DNA of 64,000 bases from a candidate division FCPU426 bacterium. Its GTDB lineage: Bacteria > Oederibacteriota > Muellerivitia > Muellerivitales > Muellerivitaceae. Where the stretch lies: NCBI GenBank assembly GCA_027452205.1, contig DAIDGV010000010.1:62001-126000 (forward strand), written 5' to 3'. This document shows positions 18,596-38,067 of this stretch, one piece after another (within the stretch, counting starts at the first letter, position 1; the number at the start of each line of letters is the position of its first letter). The translations under genes and the position numbers were made by a program. Under the pieces are notes generated by a model that had not been told where the DNA came from, made no database searches, and saw only the letters and a program-made list of their open reading frames with translations.

Positions 18596-20743
18596 TTATG
18601 AAGCGGGTTTGAAGGCCTGAGTGGGGACGAATTCGAAACGGTCCGCTGCGGGTGGTTTCCACAAAAGGTTCAGGATCGTGTCTACCCCGGATGTTTTTTT
18701 GAAATGCGCCTCCAAAGAATGGGCGCCTTTCTTTAAAAATATTTTCTCGTCTTTTCGCTCGGCGGTCAGCACTTTTTTTCCATCCAAGCTCATCTCAAAA
18801 GTATCACTGGTCAAGGCGGTCCATTCATAAATACCGTCCTTTGGGGCGATCAAGCTCCCGGACCAATGAACGGCCAAAGGTGGGAATTCCGCGAAGGGAA
18901 AGTCATTGCGGAAGGTGAAGTTGAGGATCGGGTCTCTTTGGACCACAACAGGTGTACCTTTTTCCTCGGCTGAATGGTAATAGGTCCCGGTTAAACCCGA
19001 GGCGAAGGGATGGCGCGCCAACCGCTTTAGACCTGCGGCCACTGAAGGGGCGGGGATCGCGTAAAGGGCCGCGATAGGGTTTCCGCTCAGGTCCTTGAAG
19101 AACTCGGTGGTCCCGCCGGGATAGAGGCCCTGAAAAAGCCTTAAAGCGCCCCAATGGCCTTCCTCAAAGAACAGGCAGACACCCTTTCGGGGGTCCTTGG
19201 GTTTTAAATAGATCGAGTTAGGCAAACGCCACGAGCTGACCTGGGAGAAAATGTCATAGTCCAAGAAAGAAATTTGGAAATTGCCGTAAAACTTTTGGCA
19301 AAGCAGGCATTCGTGGTCCGGAGCGTAGTATCGCAAGCGGCCAGCCACCCAGCTATCCTCGGCCCCGCCCAACACCCGCCAACAATCCGGGTTCTTTGCT
19401 TGGATATCGAAATATTCATGAGCGTTCTGGCCCAGTGCGAAAACCAACAGGGCTCCCAGAACCGTTACCCGAACCAAGCGAGGCACGATGGTCTTCGTTC
19501 TTTCGAAAAGATCGGCCAATAGTTGTCCGGCGATCCAAAGGGCAAAGGGAAGGCTCCCAATGAGCCGGCTCGCGTGACGGCTGTCGATGGATAAAAAGGC
19601 GGGCAAAAGAAATAACGCAAAACCGACGAGCGGATAAAAATACCGCTTTTCTTTCCAGTGAAAGAGTGAATAGATAATGCCAGGTATCAGCAAAGCCCCG
19701 GTGATATTGTCCAATTGCGGGTAATTGGGAATGTTGTGATAAGGCCACCAATCGCCCTGCCGGTTAAAGACCAATAAGGTCTCGGTCAAGTGGTTCCAAA
19801 CGCCCAACCAGCCCTTCTCGATGAACAATTGTGGAAAGGCCAAAAGCTGTTTTTCCCGAAAGCTCAGGCCTTGGTCTTGAACGATGTGCCAGAGCATCGG
19901 GGACGCGAAAACCAGGAAAGTGCCAAAGAGCAGGGCGACGTTTTTGAGAAACACGCCCTTTTCGTTGGAACGGGAACATTCATAAAGGCCATAGATCAGT
20001 ATCAATACCGGTAAAAACTTCAGGTCCTGATAAGAATAAAGGCTGACCGCCAGGGCCAATCCGCAGGCAAAGAAGATCCCGCTTTTGGAAGTAGAGACCG
20101 CCCAGACCCAGAGGGCCAAAGTGAGAGCGATATAGAAGGGAACCTCAATGGCGGGGTGCCCATCCCGGCTATAGGTCAAGAACCAGCGGCTGACCGCCAA
20201 TAGGAAAAGCGAGGTCATCGCGGCGCTTTGGCCCGACAAGGAAGCGCAGAAGGCGTAAAAGAACACCAGGGTTAGGATGCTGATGAAGACACTGTAGAGA
20301 AAGAAAGATATCTGGGATGGCGCCACCAGGTGGAACCAGGCGTCCAGGGTGTAATAGGTGCTGGGCACGCAAACAGGCCATTTGAAAATTTCTTTAAAAG
20401 GGAACCAATTTTCTTTTGCCATGCGCTCCACGGTCAGGGCCAAATGGCCCTCGTCGGGGAAGATCCCGGCGGGAAATTGGTCCAAGTGATAGACCCGCAG
20501 GAAAAAGGCCAGGATCAGAATGCCGATCAAGCCGGCATATTCCCGCGCCGGGGAAAGAGTTGTGGGTGTGGAGGTTTTGGGATCCCGAAATAGACGCAGA
20601 AGTTGGTACCCGGCGAGGGCAAAAAAGAAAAGACCCAGGGGTAATGTCCAGGATTGGTTTTTTTGGACCAGAAAAAACTGACCCTGTCCGGCCAAGAACA
20701 AAAGGGCCAGGAAGGACCCGGTTTTCAAAATGGTTTTGTTCAA
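18596..20743 (-). CDS. GT39-like membrane glycosyltransferase with C-terminal PA14 domain
   Basis: The 715-residue protein has about a dozen membrane segments followed by a soluble C-terminal region. The N-terminal half resembles the PMT/ArnT-like (GT39/GT83) superfamily that uses lipid-linked sugars: an acidic loop after the first segments (DQFPAGIFPDEGHLAL). Residues about 590-710 form a PA14-like beta domain: SGLTGTYYHSAEEK, VHWSGSLIAPKDGIYEWTA, DTFEMSLDGKKVL and LKKGAHSLEAHFKK. PA14 usually binds carbohydrate. I chose TTG at 20743 (AAAGG seven bases upstream), because a longer reading would overlap the divergent neighbour at 20840. The combination suggests a periplasmic glycan-facing tail; the acceptor is unknown. 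Confidence 0.75.
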   Translation of the reverse strand: MNKTILKTGSFLALLFLAGQGQFFLVQKNQSWTLPLGLFFFALAGYQLLRLFRDPKTSTPTTLSPAREYAGLIGILILAFFLRVYHLDQFPAGIFPDEGHLALTVERMAKENWFPFKEIFKWPVCVPSTYYTLDAWFHLVAPSQISFFLYSVFISILTLVFFYAFCASLSGQSAAMTSLFLLAVSRWFLTYSRDGHPAIEVPFYIALTLALWVWAVSTSKSGIFFACGLALAVSLYSYQDLKFLPVLILIYGLYECSRSNEKGVFLKNVALLFGTFLVFASPMLWHIVQDQGLSFREKQLLAFPQLFIEKGWLGVWNHLTETLLVFNRQGDWWPYHNIPNYPQLDNITGALLIPGIIYSLFHWKEKRYFYPLVGFALFLLPAFLSIDSRHASRLIGSLPFALWIAGQLLADLFERTKTIVPRLVRVTVLGALLVFALGQNAHEYFDIQAKNPDCWRVLGGAEDSWVAGRLRYYAPDHECLLCQKFYGNFQISFLDYDIFSQVSSWRLPNSIYLKPKDPRKGVCLFFEEGHWGALRLFQGLYPGGTTEFFKDLSGNPIAALYAIPAPSVAAGLKRLARHPFASGLTGTYYHSAEEKGTPVVVQRDPILNFTFRNDFPFAEFPPLAVHWSGSLIAPKDGIYEWTALTSDTFEMSLDGKKVLTAERKDEKIFLKKGAHSLEAHFKKTSGVDTILNLLWKPPAADRFEFVPTQAFKPAS

Positions 20744-33448: not shown

Positions 33449-34012
33449 ATGCCTGATTATAAGAAAGCTTACGTCACCGTTATGGTCGATGACCTCGACA
33501 AGTCGGTGGAGTTCTACGGCAGTCTCTTAGGTCTATATGAGGATCTGCGGTTCGGCGACAGCTGGGCCGAAATGACCACGAAGGGCATCACCATTGGCCT
33601 TCACCCCAAGAAGATCGGGGCCCGGCCCAATTATGGCGCCTCCGCAAACTCCGGCTCCTCGGCCGGGCGCAACCAAACCGCGTCCCTCGACTTGAAGGTC
33701 GAGGGACAGGTGGCCCCTCACGGCACTTCTTCAAGTTCCAGTTCTTCCGCTAGCGCCAGCGCTTCGGTTAGCTCCAGCACCTCGGCAGGGCACGACCAAA
33801 AGTCTTTCTTTTCCTTAAAGGTCGAAGGCAAGGTGGCCCACCCAGCCCCGCCCCAACTGTCCATCGGATTCGAGGTGGAAGATATCTGTAAGACCGCGAA
33901 AGAACTAGAAGCCAAGGGCATCCGGTTCCACTTCCAAGAGAACGATGTGAACATCCTGGCTTTCTTCGTGGACCCGGATGGAACCCCGCTTTATTTAACG
34001 CAGGTACGGTAA
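33449..34012 (+). CDS. VOC/glyoxalase-fold protein with a serine/alanine-rich insert
   Basis: A 187-residue protein whose two ends form a vicinal-oxygen-chelate module: YVTVMVDDLDKSVEFYGSLL with TKGITIGLHP (residues 5-55) and SIGFEVEDICKTAKELEAKG with FFVDPDGTPLYLTQ (137-187). Between them is an 80-residue low-complexity insert with a Ser/Ala tract (93-112). The tract is flanked by two copies of a segment of about 20 residues (71-89 and 112-130): SAG[RH][ND]Q followed by LKVEG[QK]VA. VOC members include glyoxalases and fosfomycin/bleomycin resistance proteins; the metal ligands are not clear here. GGAGGGG precedes the ATG. The insert is unusual for the family. Confidence 0.75.
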   Translation: MPDYKKAYVTVMVDDLDKSVEFYGSLLGLYEDLRFGDSWAEMTTKGITIGLHPKKIGARPNYGASANSGSSAGRNQTASLDLKVEGQVAPHGTSSSSSSSASASASVSSSTSAGHDQKSFFSLKVEGKVAHPAPPQLSIGFEVEDICKTAKELEAKGIRFHFQENDVNILAFFVDPDGTPLYLTQVR

Positions 34013-34026
34013 CGTTTGGCCTCATC

Positions 34027-34125
34027 ATGATGGGTATATTCACCGAAAAGCCGGATATGAAGCCCCATCAGGCCCCGGCCCCGTCGAAGGATTCGGATAG
34101 GAAGTTGTATGAAGAGTTGCGGTAA
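34027..34125 (+). CDS. Possible 32-residue peptide or gene remnant
   Basis: A short frame (MMGIFTEKPDMKPHQ to the end KLYEELR) lies just after the VOC gene and before the AT-rich block. Its base composition matches the GC-rich chromosome, not the AT-rich neighbour. No good ribosome site precedes it. It may be the tail of a gene cut at the edge of an inserted segment, or chance. Confidence 0.2.
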   Translation: MMGIFTEKPDMKPHQAPAPSKDSDRKLYEELR

Positions 34126-34156
34126 GCAATGTGTGTGAAAACGAATATTTCTTAGC

Positions 34157-35752
34157 TTACCAGTCGGATGTTTCTGATTCGCCAACGTTTCTTATTAAAT
34201 CGACGTGACCTTGGATCAGGGGGAAAATTACGTCTACGATTTTAAAAGGATTATTTTTGTCGTAGCTTGTGGCGTCGACAATAACATCGGCAAGTTTATG
34301 CTTATTGCCGGTATAAATATCGGGAAGACTTATTTCTGTTATCCAAATTAAATCTGGATATTGGTTTAAACGAGTTCTTTCTGCAACTTGTAATTGAGAA
34401 CCGGTCGGGACAATAAATTTCTCAACGTAGCTAATATATTCTTCCCTTTTTTGGAGAATTGTTCTGGCTACGATGTCTGCTGAGTTGATGGCTTTAATAA
34501 CTCTGGGGTTCCATTTTGGGCCCAGTTGCAAACGGCCAGTCACTATCAAAAACTTAAAGTTTTTAATGGCGATTTGCTCTGCATCATAACCAGGTAATAT
34601 TACTTTATCCGGCACAATAACGATGGCCATTGTTGCGTGGAGATTTGGGTTTTTTGCTGGAACAACTAAGTTTCTTAGGTTCTCTACGGGAAGTGTGCTG
34701 TAAATTCCGAAATTGTCATCGTTGATTATAAAGTGGTCGGTATAAGAAGCTGCGTTTATATATTCTGTAATTGGATATCCGCCATACATTTTATGAGCTT
34801 TTGGTGCCCAACGGTCCGAGTTCATCGTGTGGCCTATGATTGTTACCACGTGCGATAGCGAATTGTTACTATTTAGGTTCCAGCCTTGCACACCCAGAAT
34901 AATCGGACATCTTGATTCTATGAATGGATATAAGTAGTGGTCGTAGTCAATTCCTGGATTTTGCGTGAAGTTAAGTTCTAACACATTAACTCCAAAATGT
35001 TTTGCAACTGTCTTTATTTCGATTAGTGAAAGACCATTATCTAGGGTGGGAGTTCCACTGTAGTGTCCAAGTTTTCTTTTTGTTAAATCGATACCCAGGT
35101 GTTCATTAATATCCTTGTTTGTTATTTTTGTTGTAGTCCAAGGCGCGCTGTTTACAGCCATCCTTAAACAAGCGTGAGCGCAAACATTTGTGAGGTCGTT
35201 CTGTTGAGCGAAAAAACTTCCGATTATTTTAAAGTTTTTTGCCGTTATTGAATCGTTTCCGAGGGAGGTTTTAAATTCTCTGACAGTGTGAAAGTAGTAA
35301 TTCATCAATGGTTCTTTATCGCTTGAACCATCCTTTTTTAAAAAAGGTATTCGGACTACGGCTTCATGTAGTTTGCTTCGCTTTCTTTCATTTGGGTCTG
35401 GCAATGTGAAAGTGGTTATGACGGTATATCCCAAGATTGTTTCGTCATTTAATTCAGAATCATTCCAATTGCCGGAGGTTGGCCAGACGCTAAAAAAAGT
35501 TAGTCTTGTGACTCGAAGATCGACTGTTCCGCCACAACGAGTTTCGGCAGCGCTTTTTTCATATATTAGTTCAGCGTTTAGTTCCAACTCCTCTTCTACG
35601 CAGCATTGTGCGTTCATTTTTCGCATCAAGGTTAAGAAACGATGCATTGGGGGATTGTTTGGCGACAATCTATCGGCTGTGTCAAAGAACGAGCAATTTG
35701 ATTGATCGCACTTAGTTGTTGTCGGTGTTGCTTTTGATTTACCGTTTTCCAT
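34157..35752 (-). CDS. C39-like papain-fold cysteine peptidase domain in a 531-residue AT-rich protein
   Basis: I do not recognise the whole protein, but its middle matches the peptidase C39-like pattern. Residues 182-200 read AQQNDLTNVCAHACLRM, close to the C39 form Q-x(5-6)-C-GPACLxM, making Cys191 the likely nucleophile. LSHVVTIIGHT supplies His (301 or 308), and HFIINDDNFG the third residue. Residues 1-170 include several cysteines (CDQSNC, AQCC, RCGG); residues 360-531 are mixed alpha/beta. There is no signal peptide, membrane segment or ABC-transporter fusion. GAGG precedes the ATG. The gene is clearly richer in A+T than its neighbours, a sign of transfer. A 64-residue peptide gene lies just upstream on the same strand. 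Confidence 0.65.
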   Translation of the reverse strand: MENGKSKATPTTTKCDQSNCSFFDTADRLSPNNPPMHRFLTLMRKMNAQCCVEEELELNAELIYEKSAAETRCGGTVDLRVTRLTFFSVWPTSGNWNDSELNDETILGYTVITTFTLPDPNERKRSKLHEAVVRIPFLKKDGSSDKEPLMNYYFHTVREFKTSLGNDSITAKNFKIIGSFFAQQNDLTNVCAHACLRMAVNSAPWTTTKITNKDINEHLGIDLTKRKLGHYSGTPTLDNGLSLIEIKTVAKHFGVNVLELNFTQNPGIDYDHYLYPFIESRCPIILGVQGWNLNSNNSLSHVVTIIGHTMNSDRWAPKAHKMYGGYPITEYINAASYTDHFIINDDNFGIYSTLPVENLRNLVVPAKNPNLHATMAIVIVPDKVILPGYDAEQIAIKNFKFLIVTGRLQLGPKWNPRVIKAINSADIVARTILQKREEYISYVEKFIVPTGSQLQVAERTRLNQYPDLIWITEISLPDIYTGNKHKLADVIVDATSYDKNNPFKIVDVIFPLIQGHVDLIRNVGESETSDW

Positions 35753-35770
35753 ATGTCCTCAAACAAAAAA

Positions 35771-35797
35771 ACCCGCAATTGCTTGCGGGTTTTTTTG
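35771..35797 (-). terminator. Intrinsic terminator/attenuator between the 64-aa gene and the peptidase gene
   Basis: ACCCGCAA (35771-35778), loop TTGC, TTGCGGGT (35783-35790), with A6 on one side and T7 on the other, so it can act on both strands. It lies 18 bp after the 64-residue gene's stop and 19 bp before the peptidase start, so the peptide would be made in excess and the peptidase by read-through or its own promoter. Confidence 0.85.
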
Positions 35798-35814
35798 TTA
35801 ATTAGTACTGCATC

Positions 35815-36009
35815 TTAGTAGTTTAACGGCTCACCTAAAATCCATTGGGTCTTTTCAGAACGTTCACGCCAGTCGAAAAGATTTTGGAGAAGTTCCTGTT
35901 CTTTTTGACTAGATTCGACTTTGATTTGTCCCGCAGTTAGGGACAAGATACAAACATTGCTAGCTTCTTGTGTGACTTCTACATGCGAGCTCCGAGACTT
36001 ACTCTCCAT
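35815..36009 (-). CDS. 64-residue peptide upstream of the C39-like peptidase
   Basis: ATG 36009 has a strong GAGGAGG site seven bases upstream, which fixes the start. The peptide begins MESKSRSSHVEVTQEAS and ends WILGEPLNY; it has a central strand-like NVCILSLTAGQIKVE and a helical half KEQELLQNLFDWRER. No double-glycine leader, signal peptide or membrane segment is present. It resembles no family I know. The layout, a small strongly translated peptide, a terminator, then a C39-like protease on the same strand, suggests a substrate or partner of the protease; this is inference. The 230 bp upstream is very AT-rich, with a possible TTGCAA/TTAATA promoter. Confidence 0.6.
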   Translation of the reverse strand: MESKSRSSHVEVTQEASNVCILSLTAGQIKVESSQKEQELLQNLFDWRERSEKTQWILGEPLNY

Positions 36010-36242: not shown

Positions 36243-36824
36243 ATGCCCCGAAATACTTCAACCATCTCCTTTAAATCCCATCTCGACTTTGAAAAGTGGC
36301 TCGCCAAGAACGGCTCCAAATCTGCGGGCATTTGGCTGAAGATCTTCAAAAAGCACACGGGCAAGGCTACGGTGACCTATGCCGAGGCCTTAGATGTGGC
36401 CCTTTGCTATGGCTGGATCGACGGGCAAAAGAATAAGCACGACGATAAGGCCTGGTTGCAAAGATTCACCCCCAGGCGGCCTAAAAGCGGCTGGTCGAAG
36501 ACCAATACCAAGCATATAGCCCGGCTTATCAAAGAGGGGCGTATGAAGCCCGCGGGTTTAAAAGAGGTGGCCGAGGCCAAGAAAGATGGCCGCTGGAAGA
36601 ATGCCTACCACCCCCAAAGCACCGCTACCTTTCCACCCGAGTTCCTCAAGATGGTCGCCAAGAACCCCAAAGCCCAGGCCTTTTTGGACAAGCTGGACCG
36701 GGTGAACCGCTATGCCATGATCTATCGGCTTCAAACCACCAAAAGACCCGAAAACAAGGCTAAGAAGATGGAACTGTACCTTCAGATGCTGGCCAAGGGC
36801 CAACGCCTCCGCCCGATTATATAG
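36243..36824 (+). CDS. YdeI/OmpD-associated family protein
   Basis: A 193-residue protein of the YdeI/OmdA group. Recognisable stretches are FEKWLAKNGSKSAGIWLKIFKK, TVTYAEALDVALCYGWIDGQ, FTPRRPKSGWSKTNTKHIARLI and the C-terminal PPEFLKMVAKNPKAQAFLDKL domain. Homologues are widespread; some have been linked to bacteriocin or peptide tolerance, but the biochemical role is not settled. Length is typical. The upstream 230 bp is the AT-rich region shared with the divergent peptide gene, and no good ribosome site precedes the ATG. Downstream starts the palindrome array. Confidence 0.85.
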   Translation: MPRNTSTISFKSHLDFEKWLAKNGSKSAGIWLKIFKKHTGKATVTYAEALDVALCYGWIDGQKNKHDDKAWLQRFTPRRPKSGWSKTNTKHIARLIKEGRMKPAGLKEVAEAKKDGRWKNAYHPQSTATFPPEFLKMVAKNPKAQAFLDKLDRVNRYAMIYRLQTTKRPENKAKKMELYLQMLAKGQRLRPII

Positions 36825-36848: not shown

Positions 36849-37433
36849 GATTTTACCAACCGTTGGTAAATCAGCCGCCCCCAAGGCCCAAGTTTTTGGG
36901 AATCTCAAAAACCTACCCCCTGGTTTTACGCAACTTGCGTAAAACATCCCCCTGGCTCCCCGGTTTTACCAACCGTTGGTAAAACCACCCCGGTCGTTCT
37001 TTGGTAGCTGAAGAATCTTCAGTTTTGCGTCCACTTTTGACACCGGCGGTGTCACTAAGGTCAAAAATATAGGTTTTTGGCGATGGGACCAGGCCACTAG
37101 GCAGACCAAAAGGTCAAAGTTTGAACCTTTTACTTGGTCTTGCGTCCAATTAAGTTACTTCCCGTAACTTTTGACCCTCCTCAAGAGCCCAGTTTTACCA
37201 ACGGTTGGTAAAACCACCCGGCCAATCGTTAAATGTTTTAACGATTCGGGGGTCTCAAGGCGACTCAAATGTTCAGAGTCTGAACGTTAGACTGGCCCAT
37301 CGTTAACCGAGTTAACGCCTGGGGGCTGGATAGGGCCCAGTTTTATGACTGGGTTATAAATGCAAACCTCGGTTTTACGAAGCCTTCGTAAAACCGCCCC
37401 GTCAAAGGGTGTCCATTCTTCAGCGGCTGAAGA
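36849..37433. repeat. Array of 15 phased short palindromes (non-coding)
   Basis: Fifteen inverted repeats lie in 585 bp of the gene-free stretch 36825-37590. Centres: 36861, 36893/4, 36934, 36974, 37015, 37046, 37119, 37161, 37203, 37235, 37278, 37309, 37351, 37383, 37425. Steps are 31-33 or 40-43 bp, once 73. Nine have a single central base and perfect arms of 7-12 bp, e.g. arms GTTTTACGCAA (36923-36933), GGTTTTACCAAC (36962-36973), CTGAAGA (37008-37014), TGACACCG (37038-37045), GGTTTTACGAAG (37371-37382), TCTTCAGC (37417-37424). Three (37235, 37309, 37351) have 3-bp centres; that at 37351 includes one G-T pair; the one at 37119 is imperfect. TTTTAC-type units are followed by runs of C. Many stops in all frames argue against coding. 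Confidence 0.9.
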
Positions 37434-37590
37434 GTCAGGTCTATCCCCATTTAGCCAGTGTCCAAAAATTGCTATTTTTTTTGCGGGTTCCTTATATTGT
37501 GCCATCCCCAATAGCGATAATCTATATCCACTCGAACGGCTGCCCCCGGACCTGTTGTGGCTTCAAATACAACATTCACTGGGGGATTCC

Positions 37591-38067
37591 ATGGCCATTT
37601 TCATGAAAACAAAATCTGAAGCTGATTTTTTAAAAGAAGTCAGCCTTTTCGACGGTATTGAAGACAGCGCCTTAAGCCAGATCTTTCGACTGGGCAAAGT
37701 GAAAAACTTTAAAGCCGGCGAGACCATCATTCACGAAGGCCAAAAGGGCGGCAACGTCCACATCGTCATTACGGGCCAGGTTGAAATTTCCAAAAACGTA
37801 AAAGAATCCGACAAGAGAAAATTCTTGGCCAAAGTTGGACGTGGGTCCATTTTTGGTGAAATGAGCGTCTTCGACGGCGCGCCCTACGCGGCCACGGTGG
37901 CGGCCACCGAGGATTGTTCGGTTTGTGTGATCCAAGGCGAGGATTTCAAAACTTTTCTGAGGAACAACCCGAACCTGGCCTATGGGGTTTTCTGCACTTT
38001 GATCAATTTGATCTCAAGTCGTTTGCGGCGGACCAACCAGGCCCTTTCGCTTTTAGAATTTAATTAG
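37591..38067 (+). CDS. Cyclic-nucleotide-binding (CAP_ED) domain protein without HTH
   Basis: A 158-residue protein made of one cNMP-binding beta-roll: FDGIEDSALSQIFRLGKVKNF, the turn GETIIHEGQKGGNVHIVITGQVEI, and the phosphate-binding cassette GSIFGEMSVFDGAPYAATVAA, with Gly-Glu and an Ala-Ala where ligand-binding Crp proteins have Arg-Ser/Thr. It ends in a helix (ISSRLRRTNQALSLLEF) with no DNA-binding domain. ATG 37591 has GGGGGA just upstream. The promoter must lie in or next to the palindrome array, so the array may control it. The YAATVAA variation in the cassette makes cyclic nucleotide binding uncertain. A paralogue is at 56890-57345. Confidence 0.85.
   Translation: MAIFMKTKSEADFLKEVSLFDGIEDSALSQIFRLGKVKNFKAGETIIHEGQKGGNVHIVITGQVEISKNVKESDKRKFLAKVGRGSIFGEMSVFDGAPYAATVAATEDCSVCVIQGEDFKTFLRNNPNLAYGVFCTLINLISSRLRRTNQALSLLEFN

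Follow-up and report, generated by a model that had tools for sequence, protein, structure and literature searches.

Rickettsia palindromic elements are palindromes that lie in frame within genes, and the KorB consensus is odd. In ParB, the recognition helix enters the major grooves of the palindromic site and a few residues set the specificity, and the sites of both ParB and Noc are even, with a length of 16 bp (PMC7383237). VirB, a regulator of the ParB family, binds inverted repeats whose halves are separated by one nucleotide (PMC6410309). KorB, a CTP-dependent sliding clamp, has several operator sites and acts from both near and distant ones (PMC11790492). In nematomorph mitochondria, genes contain perfect inverted repeats (PMC6649704).

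The window (the whole 64-kb stretch of DNA that was analysed) contains an array of 12 odd palindromes at 36852..37433, counted by a fixed rule of at least 7 of 8 central pairs. All 12 are centred on a single base, no strand is assigned to them, and their outer arms are of several types. Five units with TTTTAC/GTAAAA outer arms had been noticed in a preliminary description, and all are present at the positions given there: the first palindrome (36852..36870, TTTTACCAAC-C-GTTGGTAAA, centre 36861), the third (36923..36945, TTTTACGCAA-C-TTGCGTAAAA, centre 36934), the fourth (36962..36986, TTTTACCAAC-C-GTTGGTAAAA, centre 36974), the seventh (37192..37214, TTTTACCAAC-G-GTTGGTAAAA, centre 37203), and the eleventh (37370..37396, CGGTTTTACGAAG-C-CTTCGTAAAACCG, centre 37383). 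Their inner arms differ and are still complementary, as first described, and the one shortened unit is the first, cut on its right side. The C-rich run said to follow most units is found after four of the five, the first reading AAATCAGCCGCCCCC instead. That description was incomplete, since odd palindromes of other families share the stretch. These are the second palindrome (36892..36912, TTTT..AAAA type, 9 of 10 pairs, centre 36902), the fifth (37008..37022, CTGAAGA-A-TCTTCAG, centre 37015), the sixth (37038..37054, TGACACCG-G-CGGTGTCA, centre 37046), the eighth (37224..37246, AATCGTTAAATGTTTTAACGATT, centre 37235), the ninth (37268..37288, AATGTTCAGAGTCTGAACGTT, centre 37278), the tenth (37301..37317, CGTTAAC-CGA-GTTAACG, centre 37309), and the twelfth (37417..37433, TCTTCAGC-G-GCTGAAGA, centre 37425). 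A degenerate unit seen by eye, AAGTTACTT-C-CCGTAACTT at 37152..37170, falls below the counting rule. Within 36851-37395 there are six odd palindromes whose arms are 8 or longer, against a mean of 0.018 and a maximum of 1 in 500 dinucleotide shuffles, and all five occurrences of TTTTAC-N9-GTAAA in the 64-kb window lie inside the array region.

To the left of the array is a YdeI/OmdA-family gene (PF13376) at 36243..36824 on the + strand. To its right, also on the + strand, is a gene with a cyclic-nucleotide-binding domain (PF00027) at 37591..38067; its likely start is the ATG at 37591 (the mechanical open reading frame begins earlier, at 37360), and the array ends ~160 bp upstream of it. In the interval between them a weak sigma-70-like promoter match is found at 37469..37498 on the + strand, as one match where 1.9 are expected by chance. 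A local dip in G+C content (0.405 compared with about 0.53-0.55 around it) at 34001-36000 of the window spans a 531-aa open reading frame. Other long inverted repeats, for which the sites with a 1-nt centre do not account, are seen at 37025-37151 of the window, in the source-genome clusters C2, C3, C23, and C26, and at L125:1440-1600; they comprise TATTCTTCCAATTAA..TTAATTGGAAGAATA and TGCGTCCAATT..AATTGGACGC. A further one in the arrays is AAACCCTTATTT..AAATAAGGG.

The centres of the palindromes are in helical phase. The centre-to-centre spacings in the window are 41, 32, 40, 41, 31, 157, 32, 43, 31, 74, and 42 bp, near multiples of 10.5, with R(10.5) = 0.88 (n=11; p 4e-4 by simulation of random placement) and a best period of 10.5 bp in a scan of 6-20 bp. 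The degenerate unit, 115 and 42 bp from its neighbours, is also in phase. The phasing was first tested on the same arrays where it was noticed; the arrays in other genomes (R 0.69, n=22, best period 10.6) are the nearest to an independent check, and this set includes the tandem array of G002 with its repeated 94-bp spacings. For the five other arrays of the source genome R is 0.56 (n=27, best period 10.5), and for all arrays pooled it is 0.66 (n=60); these counts are not independent, because C2, C3, and C23b are partly mutual copies and the G002 spacings repeat. In the control, made of neighbouring odd palindromes of a 400-kb stretch, R is 0.01 (n=29). The period is retained with the strictest palindrome rule, at the cost of fewer spacings, and diluted by the two looser rules: R at 10.5 is then 0.53 and 0.46 for all regions, the arrays of other genomes give 0.42 and 0.28 with other best periods, and the best periods of the window become 9.2 and 9.9.

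The source genome (G000) has 2.89 Mb in 28 contigs and carries similar non-coding clusters at C2, C3, C23 (two), and C26; further ones are present in the family genomes G001, G002, G004, and G007. Four of 8 family genomes, and none of 37 other genomes of the phylum, contain the pattern AATTGT-N11-ACAATT with the AAATAAGGG frame. A broader pattern search was set aside as too degenerate, since it gave matches in 53 of 59 genomes and no fewer in the control. The exact CAAC palindrome is present in four named genomes; the copy at L072 (FCPU426) lies within a coding gene, presumably moeA-like, and the same stretch is present in G002 (L066). We took these exact matches for chance; the L072 copy is a bare palindrome with no array. 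The arrays of C2 and C3 (L005, L006) adjoin coding sequence resembling RHS/YD repeats, possibly interrupted genes. In G002 (C13; L113:607-805), arms CCCTTATTTTAATT..AATTAAAATAAGGG flank a longer inverted repeat, like the ends of a small mobile element. Another palindrome, GAGGTCACAATTTGTGACCTC, lies beside a second of similar form inside a G002 gene (C46; L112:13260-13350) that we take to be ORF6N-like, and it occurs once at C10 of the source genome (L106:13090-13116), just downstream of a ParB-like gene.

The paired change of the arms, on which the preliminary description had rested, was measured in three sets of related units. The units of the first set were gathered by the left frame alone (CCCTTATTT[GT]AATT), the loci themselves having been fetched by searches with such units; it comprises 22 of the 23 anchored type-I units, L044 being left out as a member of another family. 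In 18 of these 22 units, 10 or 11 of the 11 pairs are complementary in register, with 16 different inner arms by our count, and the other 4 have no palindrome. Overall 87.4% of the cells are paired, and the covariation score of 0.494 (0.163 when shuffled) is reached by 0 of 500 shuffles; sliding the arms by one column lowers the pairing to 38-39%. The second set, 17 distinct palindromic units from four family genomes (the 4 non-palindromic units and one duplicate left out), gives 97.9% and a score of 0.553 against 0.145 (0/500). The third set contains 17 units of the TTTTA/TTTA type from the source genome, picked from palindrome lists; its score is 0.546 against 0.178 (0/500), and its 91.5% of paired cells is biased upward because of this choice of rows, the ratio of one-sided to both-sided changes less so. 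The paired change thus stands above the shuffled and slid controls. Further pair types are no higher than in the shuffles for the second and third sets (80/500 and 281/500, respectively), and neither are pairs changed on both sides in the third (161/500). For the inner five pairs (columns 17-21 of the second set and 7-11 of the third), 56 cells are changed on both sides, 2 on one side, and 6 are unpaired. Homologues whose arms drift and lose complementarity had been named as the observation that would speak against selection for structure; one such case was found, the gene of G003.

Odd palindromes of the same kind occur inside genes. All the coding matches that carry a unit with its frame, among those examined (L013, L015, L100, L121, L132, and L135), are ParB-like. 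A profile of 16 such proteins matches the structures of Spo0J (3e-25), Noc, ParB, and KorB; its alignment has invariant G, R, and N columns. PF02195 is found in L132 and L135, and HTH_ParB in L013 below the cut-off. These accessory proteins have both a ParB N-terminal (CTPase-type) domain and a helix-turn-helix (HTH), and their palindrome-bearing loop is longer than the one in Noc and ParB. The profile was searched through the FCPU426 family genomes. Of 19 accessory genes with a legible loop (a count that leaves out G002 C45:23740, C14:394, and C24:86869, G001 C31, C54, and C13, and a fragment at G004 C10), 18 carry the palindrome just 3' of the HTH: 5/5 in G000, 5/5 in G001, 3/3 in G002, 3/3 in G004, 2/2 in G006, and 0/1 in G003. 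None of the six canonical parB genes of these genomes has such a palindrome, and nor do two further ParB_N matches of G001 (C47 and C87), which are outside the profiled family.

The embedded palindrome has its centre base at the second codon position in all 18 genes. If synonymous codons are drawn at random, an odd palindrome with arms of 8 is expected in 0.053 of 15 genes; taken by itself, the C9 gene shows a pairing at its centre that is not unusual under this null (328 of 2000). The innermost pair is mismatched in the sites of G000 C9, G000 C23, and G004 C29, and the site of G001 C109 has one G-T pair deeper in. G003 (65% complete) has kept the gene without the palindrome, and no array was found there by two DNA-similarity searches and a type-I pattern search, while G007 (84% complete) has an array and no accessory ParB-like gene detected by the profile. 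A search of viral contigs with two of the ParB-like proteins found no relatives, and a plasmid collection gave distant ParB proteins only (43 records, all with less than 80% of the query covered). The C10 gene (L106:9244-19000) stands amid apparent genes that we take to encode Fic/Doc, an XRE regulator, a cytosine methylase, a GHKL ATPase, and a Vsr-type nuclease. The C23 gene (L100) has an in-frame TGA near its start and, later on (C23:38603-38625, L100 ~18600-18625), a second palindrome with 11-bp arms, GTCGATTCCTTTAAGGAATCGAC. This is missing at that place in the C9 paralogue with no insertion needed, and looks like a local gain.

The sequence of the embedded palindrome follows that of the recognition helix. 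In 153 pairs made from 18 related palindrome-bearing genes (which excludes the gene of G003), palindrome similarity correlates with HTH identity with rho 0.51 and with the rest of the protein with 0.26. By segment, the values are 0.51 for the recognition helix, 0.17 for the 36 residues upstream, 0.26 farther upstream, 0.16 for the helix between HTH and palindrome, 0.18 downstream, and 0.12 far downstream. With four flanking segments held constant, r is 0.48 for the HTH and 0.49 for the recognition helix (p 3e-4 each, the smallest value possible from 3000 permutations), and the upstream and downstream flank segments show no partial correlation with the palindrome (p 0.82 and 0.83). After removal of three near-duplicate genes, the HTH given the rest of the protein still has p 4e-4. 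Local gene conversion is a poor alternative here, since the segments nearer to the palindrome do not correlate. The palindromes are also kept at third codon positions: those of G006 C143 and G004 C56 are identical at 7/7 of them and the flanks at 24/44, and for G002 C70 and G006 C102 the values are 7/7 and 29/44.

Embedded sites are related to the array units in different degrees. The ParB-like gene at C3:42666 contains a site whose 19 bp recur letter for letter in the GCAA-C-TTGC unit of the window (36925-36943), and no other mismatch-free copy is present in the source genome. Four of the five ParB-like genes of this genome have a counterpart of their site in the non-coding arrays that agrees at 15-16 of 16 arm letters; the best array match of the fifth, at C10, is no better than 12, and none of 11 foreign sites reaches 15 in the source-genome arrays. 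The ninth palindrome of the window has a 14/16 arm match to the site of a ParB-like gene of another genome (G004:C29). Most array units, for example the commonest, CAAC, have no cognate ParB-like gene in the source genome, and the C10 site, like the TAACA sites of G004 and of G006, has no copy outside its own gene, so that arrays are not needed for every site. Since some non-coding units share the ParB coding flanks, copying may account for part of the agreement between genes and arrays. By our own reading of sequences and open reading frames, some arrays (L149 and L112) include in-frame ParB coding remnants, and on these grounds arrays may have grown by copying of gene segments or from decayed genes. 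One of them is a tandem array of G002 (L112:12000-12560), whose units are ~94 and 136 bp apart and whose ParB-like coding remnants contain in-frame stops.

Taken together with the literature on ParB, VirB, and KorB, the kinship of the accessory proteins to Spo0J, Noc, ParB, and KorB leads us to read the palindromes as probable members of an array of candidate binding sites for diverging ParB-like proteins (ParB/Noc/KorB/VirB superfamily). They would be dyad-symmetric sites in duplex DNA, each half-site contacted by the HTH of a different subunit of a dimer; a change of specificity would then alter both arms at once. In the window, sites of several specificities would be lined up in non-coding DNA whole helical turns apart, which would place the bound dimers on one face. 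The accessory genes would carry their own site in the reading frame, within the lengthened loop that follows the HTH directly, and the protein and the site it recognises would thus move as one unit.

The units could instead be selfish palindromic elements of the Rickettsia kind with no host function, which have spread between genes and have also entered, in frame, a loop of the parB-like genes that tolerates them. The in-frame placement in a loop longer than that of Noc and ParB, the frames shared by coding and non-coding units, and the 4 of 22 anchored units without a palindrome agree with such elements, but the coding matches with unit and frame, among those examined, are ParB-like genes, and neither the dependence on the recognition helix nor the 10.5-bp phasing fits them. 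In addition, the arms still match each other where they have changed completely, while Rickettsia elements reportedly lose the identity of their repeats (PMC6649704). We consider this origin unlikely.

Conversion of one arm by the other, in which template switching at quasi-palindromes copies arm onto arm, would give concerted change without selection. It predicts neither the correlation with the HTH nor the helical phasing, and odd palindromes are not in excess over 400 kb of the source genome (10 whose arms reach 8, one Markov simulation giving 8); in our view it is improbable. Such conversion was proposed for nematomorph mitochondria (PMC6649704), and it would account for the near-binary perfection of the arms with very few one-sided intermediates, as for the insertion-free gain in the C23 gene with respect to its C9 paralogue.

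The third alternative, a hairpin in RNA or single-stranded DNA (a structured RNA, an attenuator, or a recombination site), is the one nearest to the preliminary description, where the paired change was taken as selection for a structure rather than for one sequence. The change itself is real, the complementarity is strong, and C-rich runs follow some units; the innermost pair, the phasing, and the conserved third positions argue against the rest of that claim. The symmetry extends to the 1-nt centre. All 13 distinct rows of the third set have a complementary pair next to the centre base, in three forms, and in the second set this pair is Watson-Crick in 15/17 and G-U in 2; a hairpin is unfit to explain it, because this innermost covarying pair cannot form across a 1-nt loop. 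Among palindromes with arms of at least 7 in 14 array regions (6,479 bp), 48/74 have a 1-nt centre and 68/74 an odd one, while centres are mixed in the 400-kb control stretch of the source genome (53/288 with a 1-nt centre). One-sided (G-U) intermediates are almost absent among the units, the few wobble-like mispairs of type-I units fall on both strands, no Rfam 15 match at gathering score is found in the window, and 10.5-bp phasing is a property of duplex DNA. A hairpin selected for its structure is therefore not supported, and we regard the alternative as very unlikely. The covariation of the innermost pair, the near absence of one-sided changes, and the 10.5-bp spacing point to duplex DNA with protein sites along one of its faces; the sequence of the palindromes matters, and they probably form a set of dyad protein sites with diverged specificity. 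As a caution, covarying arms alone are no proof of a selected hairpin. Finally, REP/BIME-type repeats mobilised by a Y1 transposase (RAYT) are scarcely credible, for although the units are palindromic and partly intergenic and Y1 transposases are present in 6/8 family genomes, the unit-rich G001 has no Y1 match, none of the units is found in the flanks of 9 Y1 loci examined, and units also lie within coding sequence.

On the reading as ParB-type sites, we infer from the sequences that the ParB-like proteins bind the palindromes, and the bound proteins may be loading platforms or regulators, acting for example by spreading, repression, or anti-silencing near the gene with the cyclic-nucleotide-binding domain. 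ParB-type sites as such are already known. The wider proposal, for and against which we see an even balance, is a natural radiation of ParB-type specificity within a single bacterial family, with cognate sites in the HTH-coding region of each accessory gene, protein and site forming one unit, and phased mixed arrays acting as shared loading platforms or switchboards. In titles and abstracts of open-licence papers, where other wording may hide related work, we found neither a recognition-helix-matched site of a probable binder inside its own gene across a gene family nor mixed arrays in helical register. If the proposal is true, ~15 natural pairs of ParB-like protein and site would be available for following the divergence of DNA-binding specificity, a subject already studied by comparing ParB with Noc (PMC7383237). 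The genes provide the case of a reading frame that contains its own probable binding site, and the mixed arrays in helix register suggest several ParB-like proteins acting jointly on one platform in an uncultured phylum.

With respect to the known systems, the array palindromes share the geometry of VirB sites, being near-perfect inverted repeats around one spacer nucleotide. The accessory proteins share the ParB fold with both KorB-OB of plasmid RK2 and VirB-virS of Shigella; the sites described here differ in diverging strongly within one genome, in forming helically phased mixed arrays, and in having one copy in the protein's own gene. The canonical ParB-parS and Noc-NBS systems likewise have a palindromic site, and a few residues are enough to switch the specificity of their HTH (PMC7383237). 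Their sites are even, of 16 bp and near TGTTTCAC-GTGAAACA, whereas those of the array have single-base centres and other sequences, and the canonical parB genes here have no in-gene palindrome. No Y1 transposase linked to the units, as in REP/RAYT systems, was found among the 9 loci examined. Like the nematomorph mitochondrial genes, the ParB-like genes have palindromes in coding sequence, but the nematomorph ones are much longer, occur in many genes, and have no known protein partner (PMC6649704). The ParB-like genes do contain palindromes in frame, in the manner of the Rickettsia elements; in contrast to these, the palindromes are confined to one gene family among the matches examined, are matched to the HTH, and retain their complementarity.
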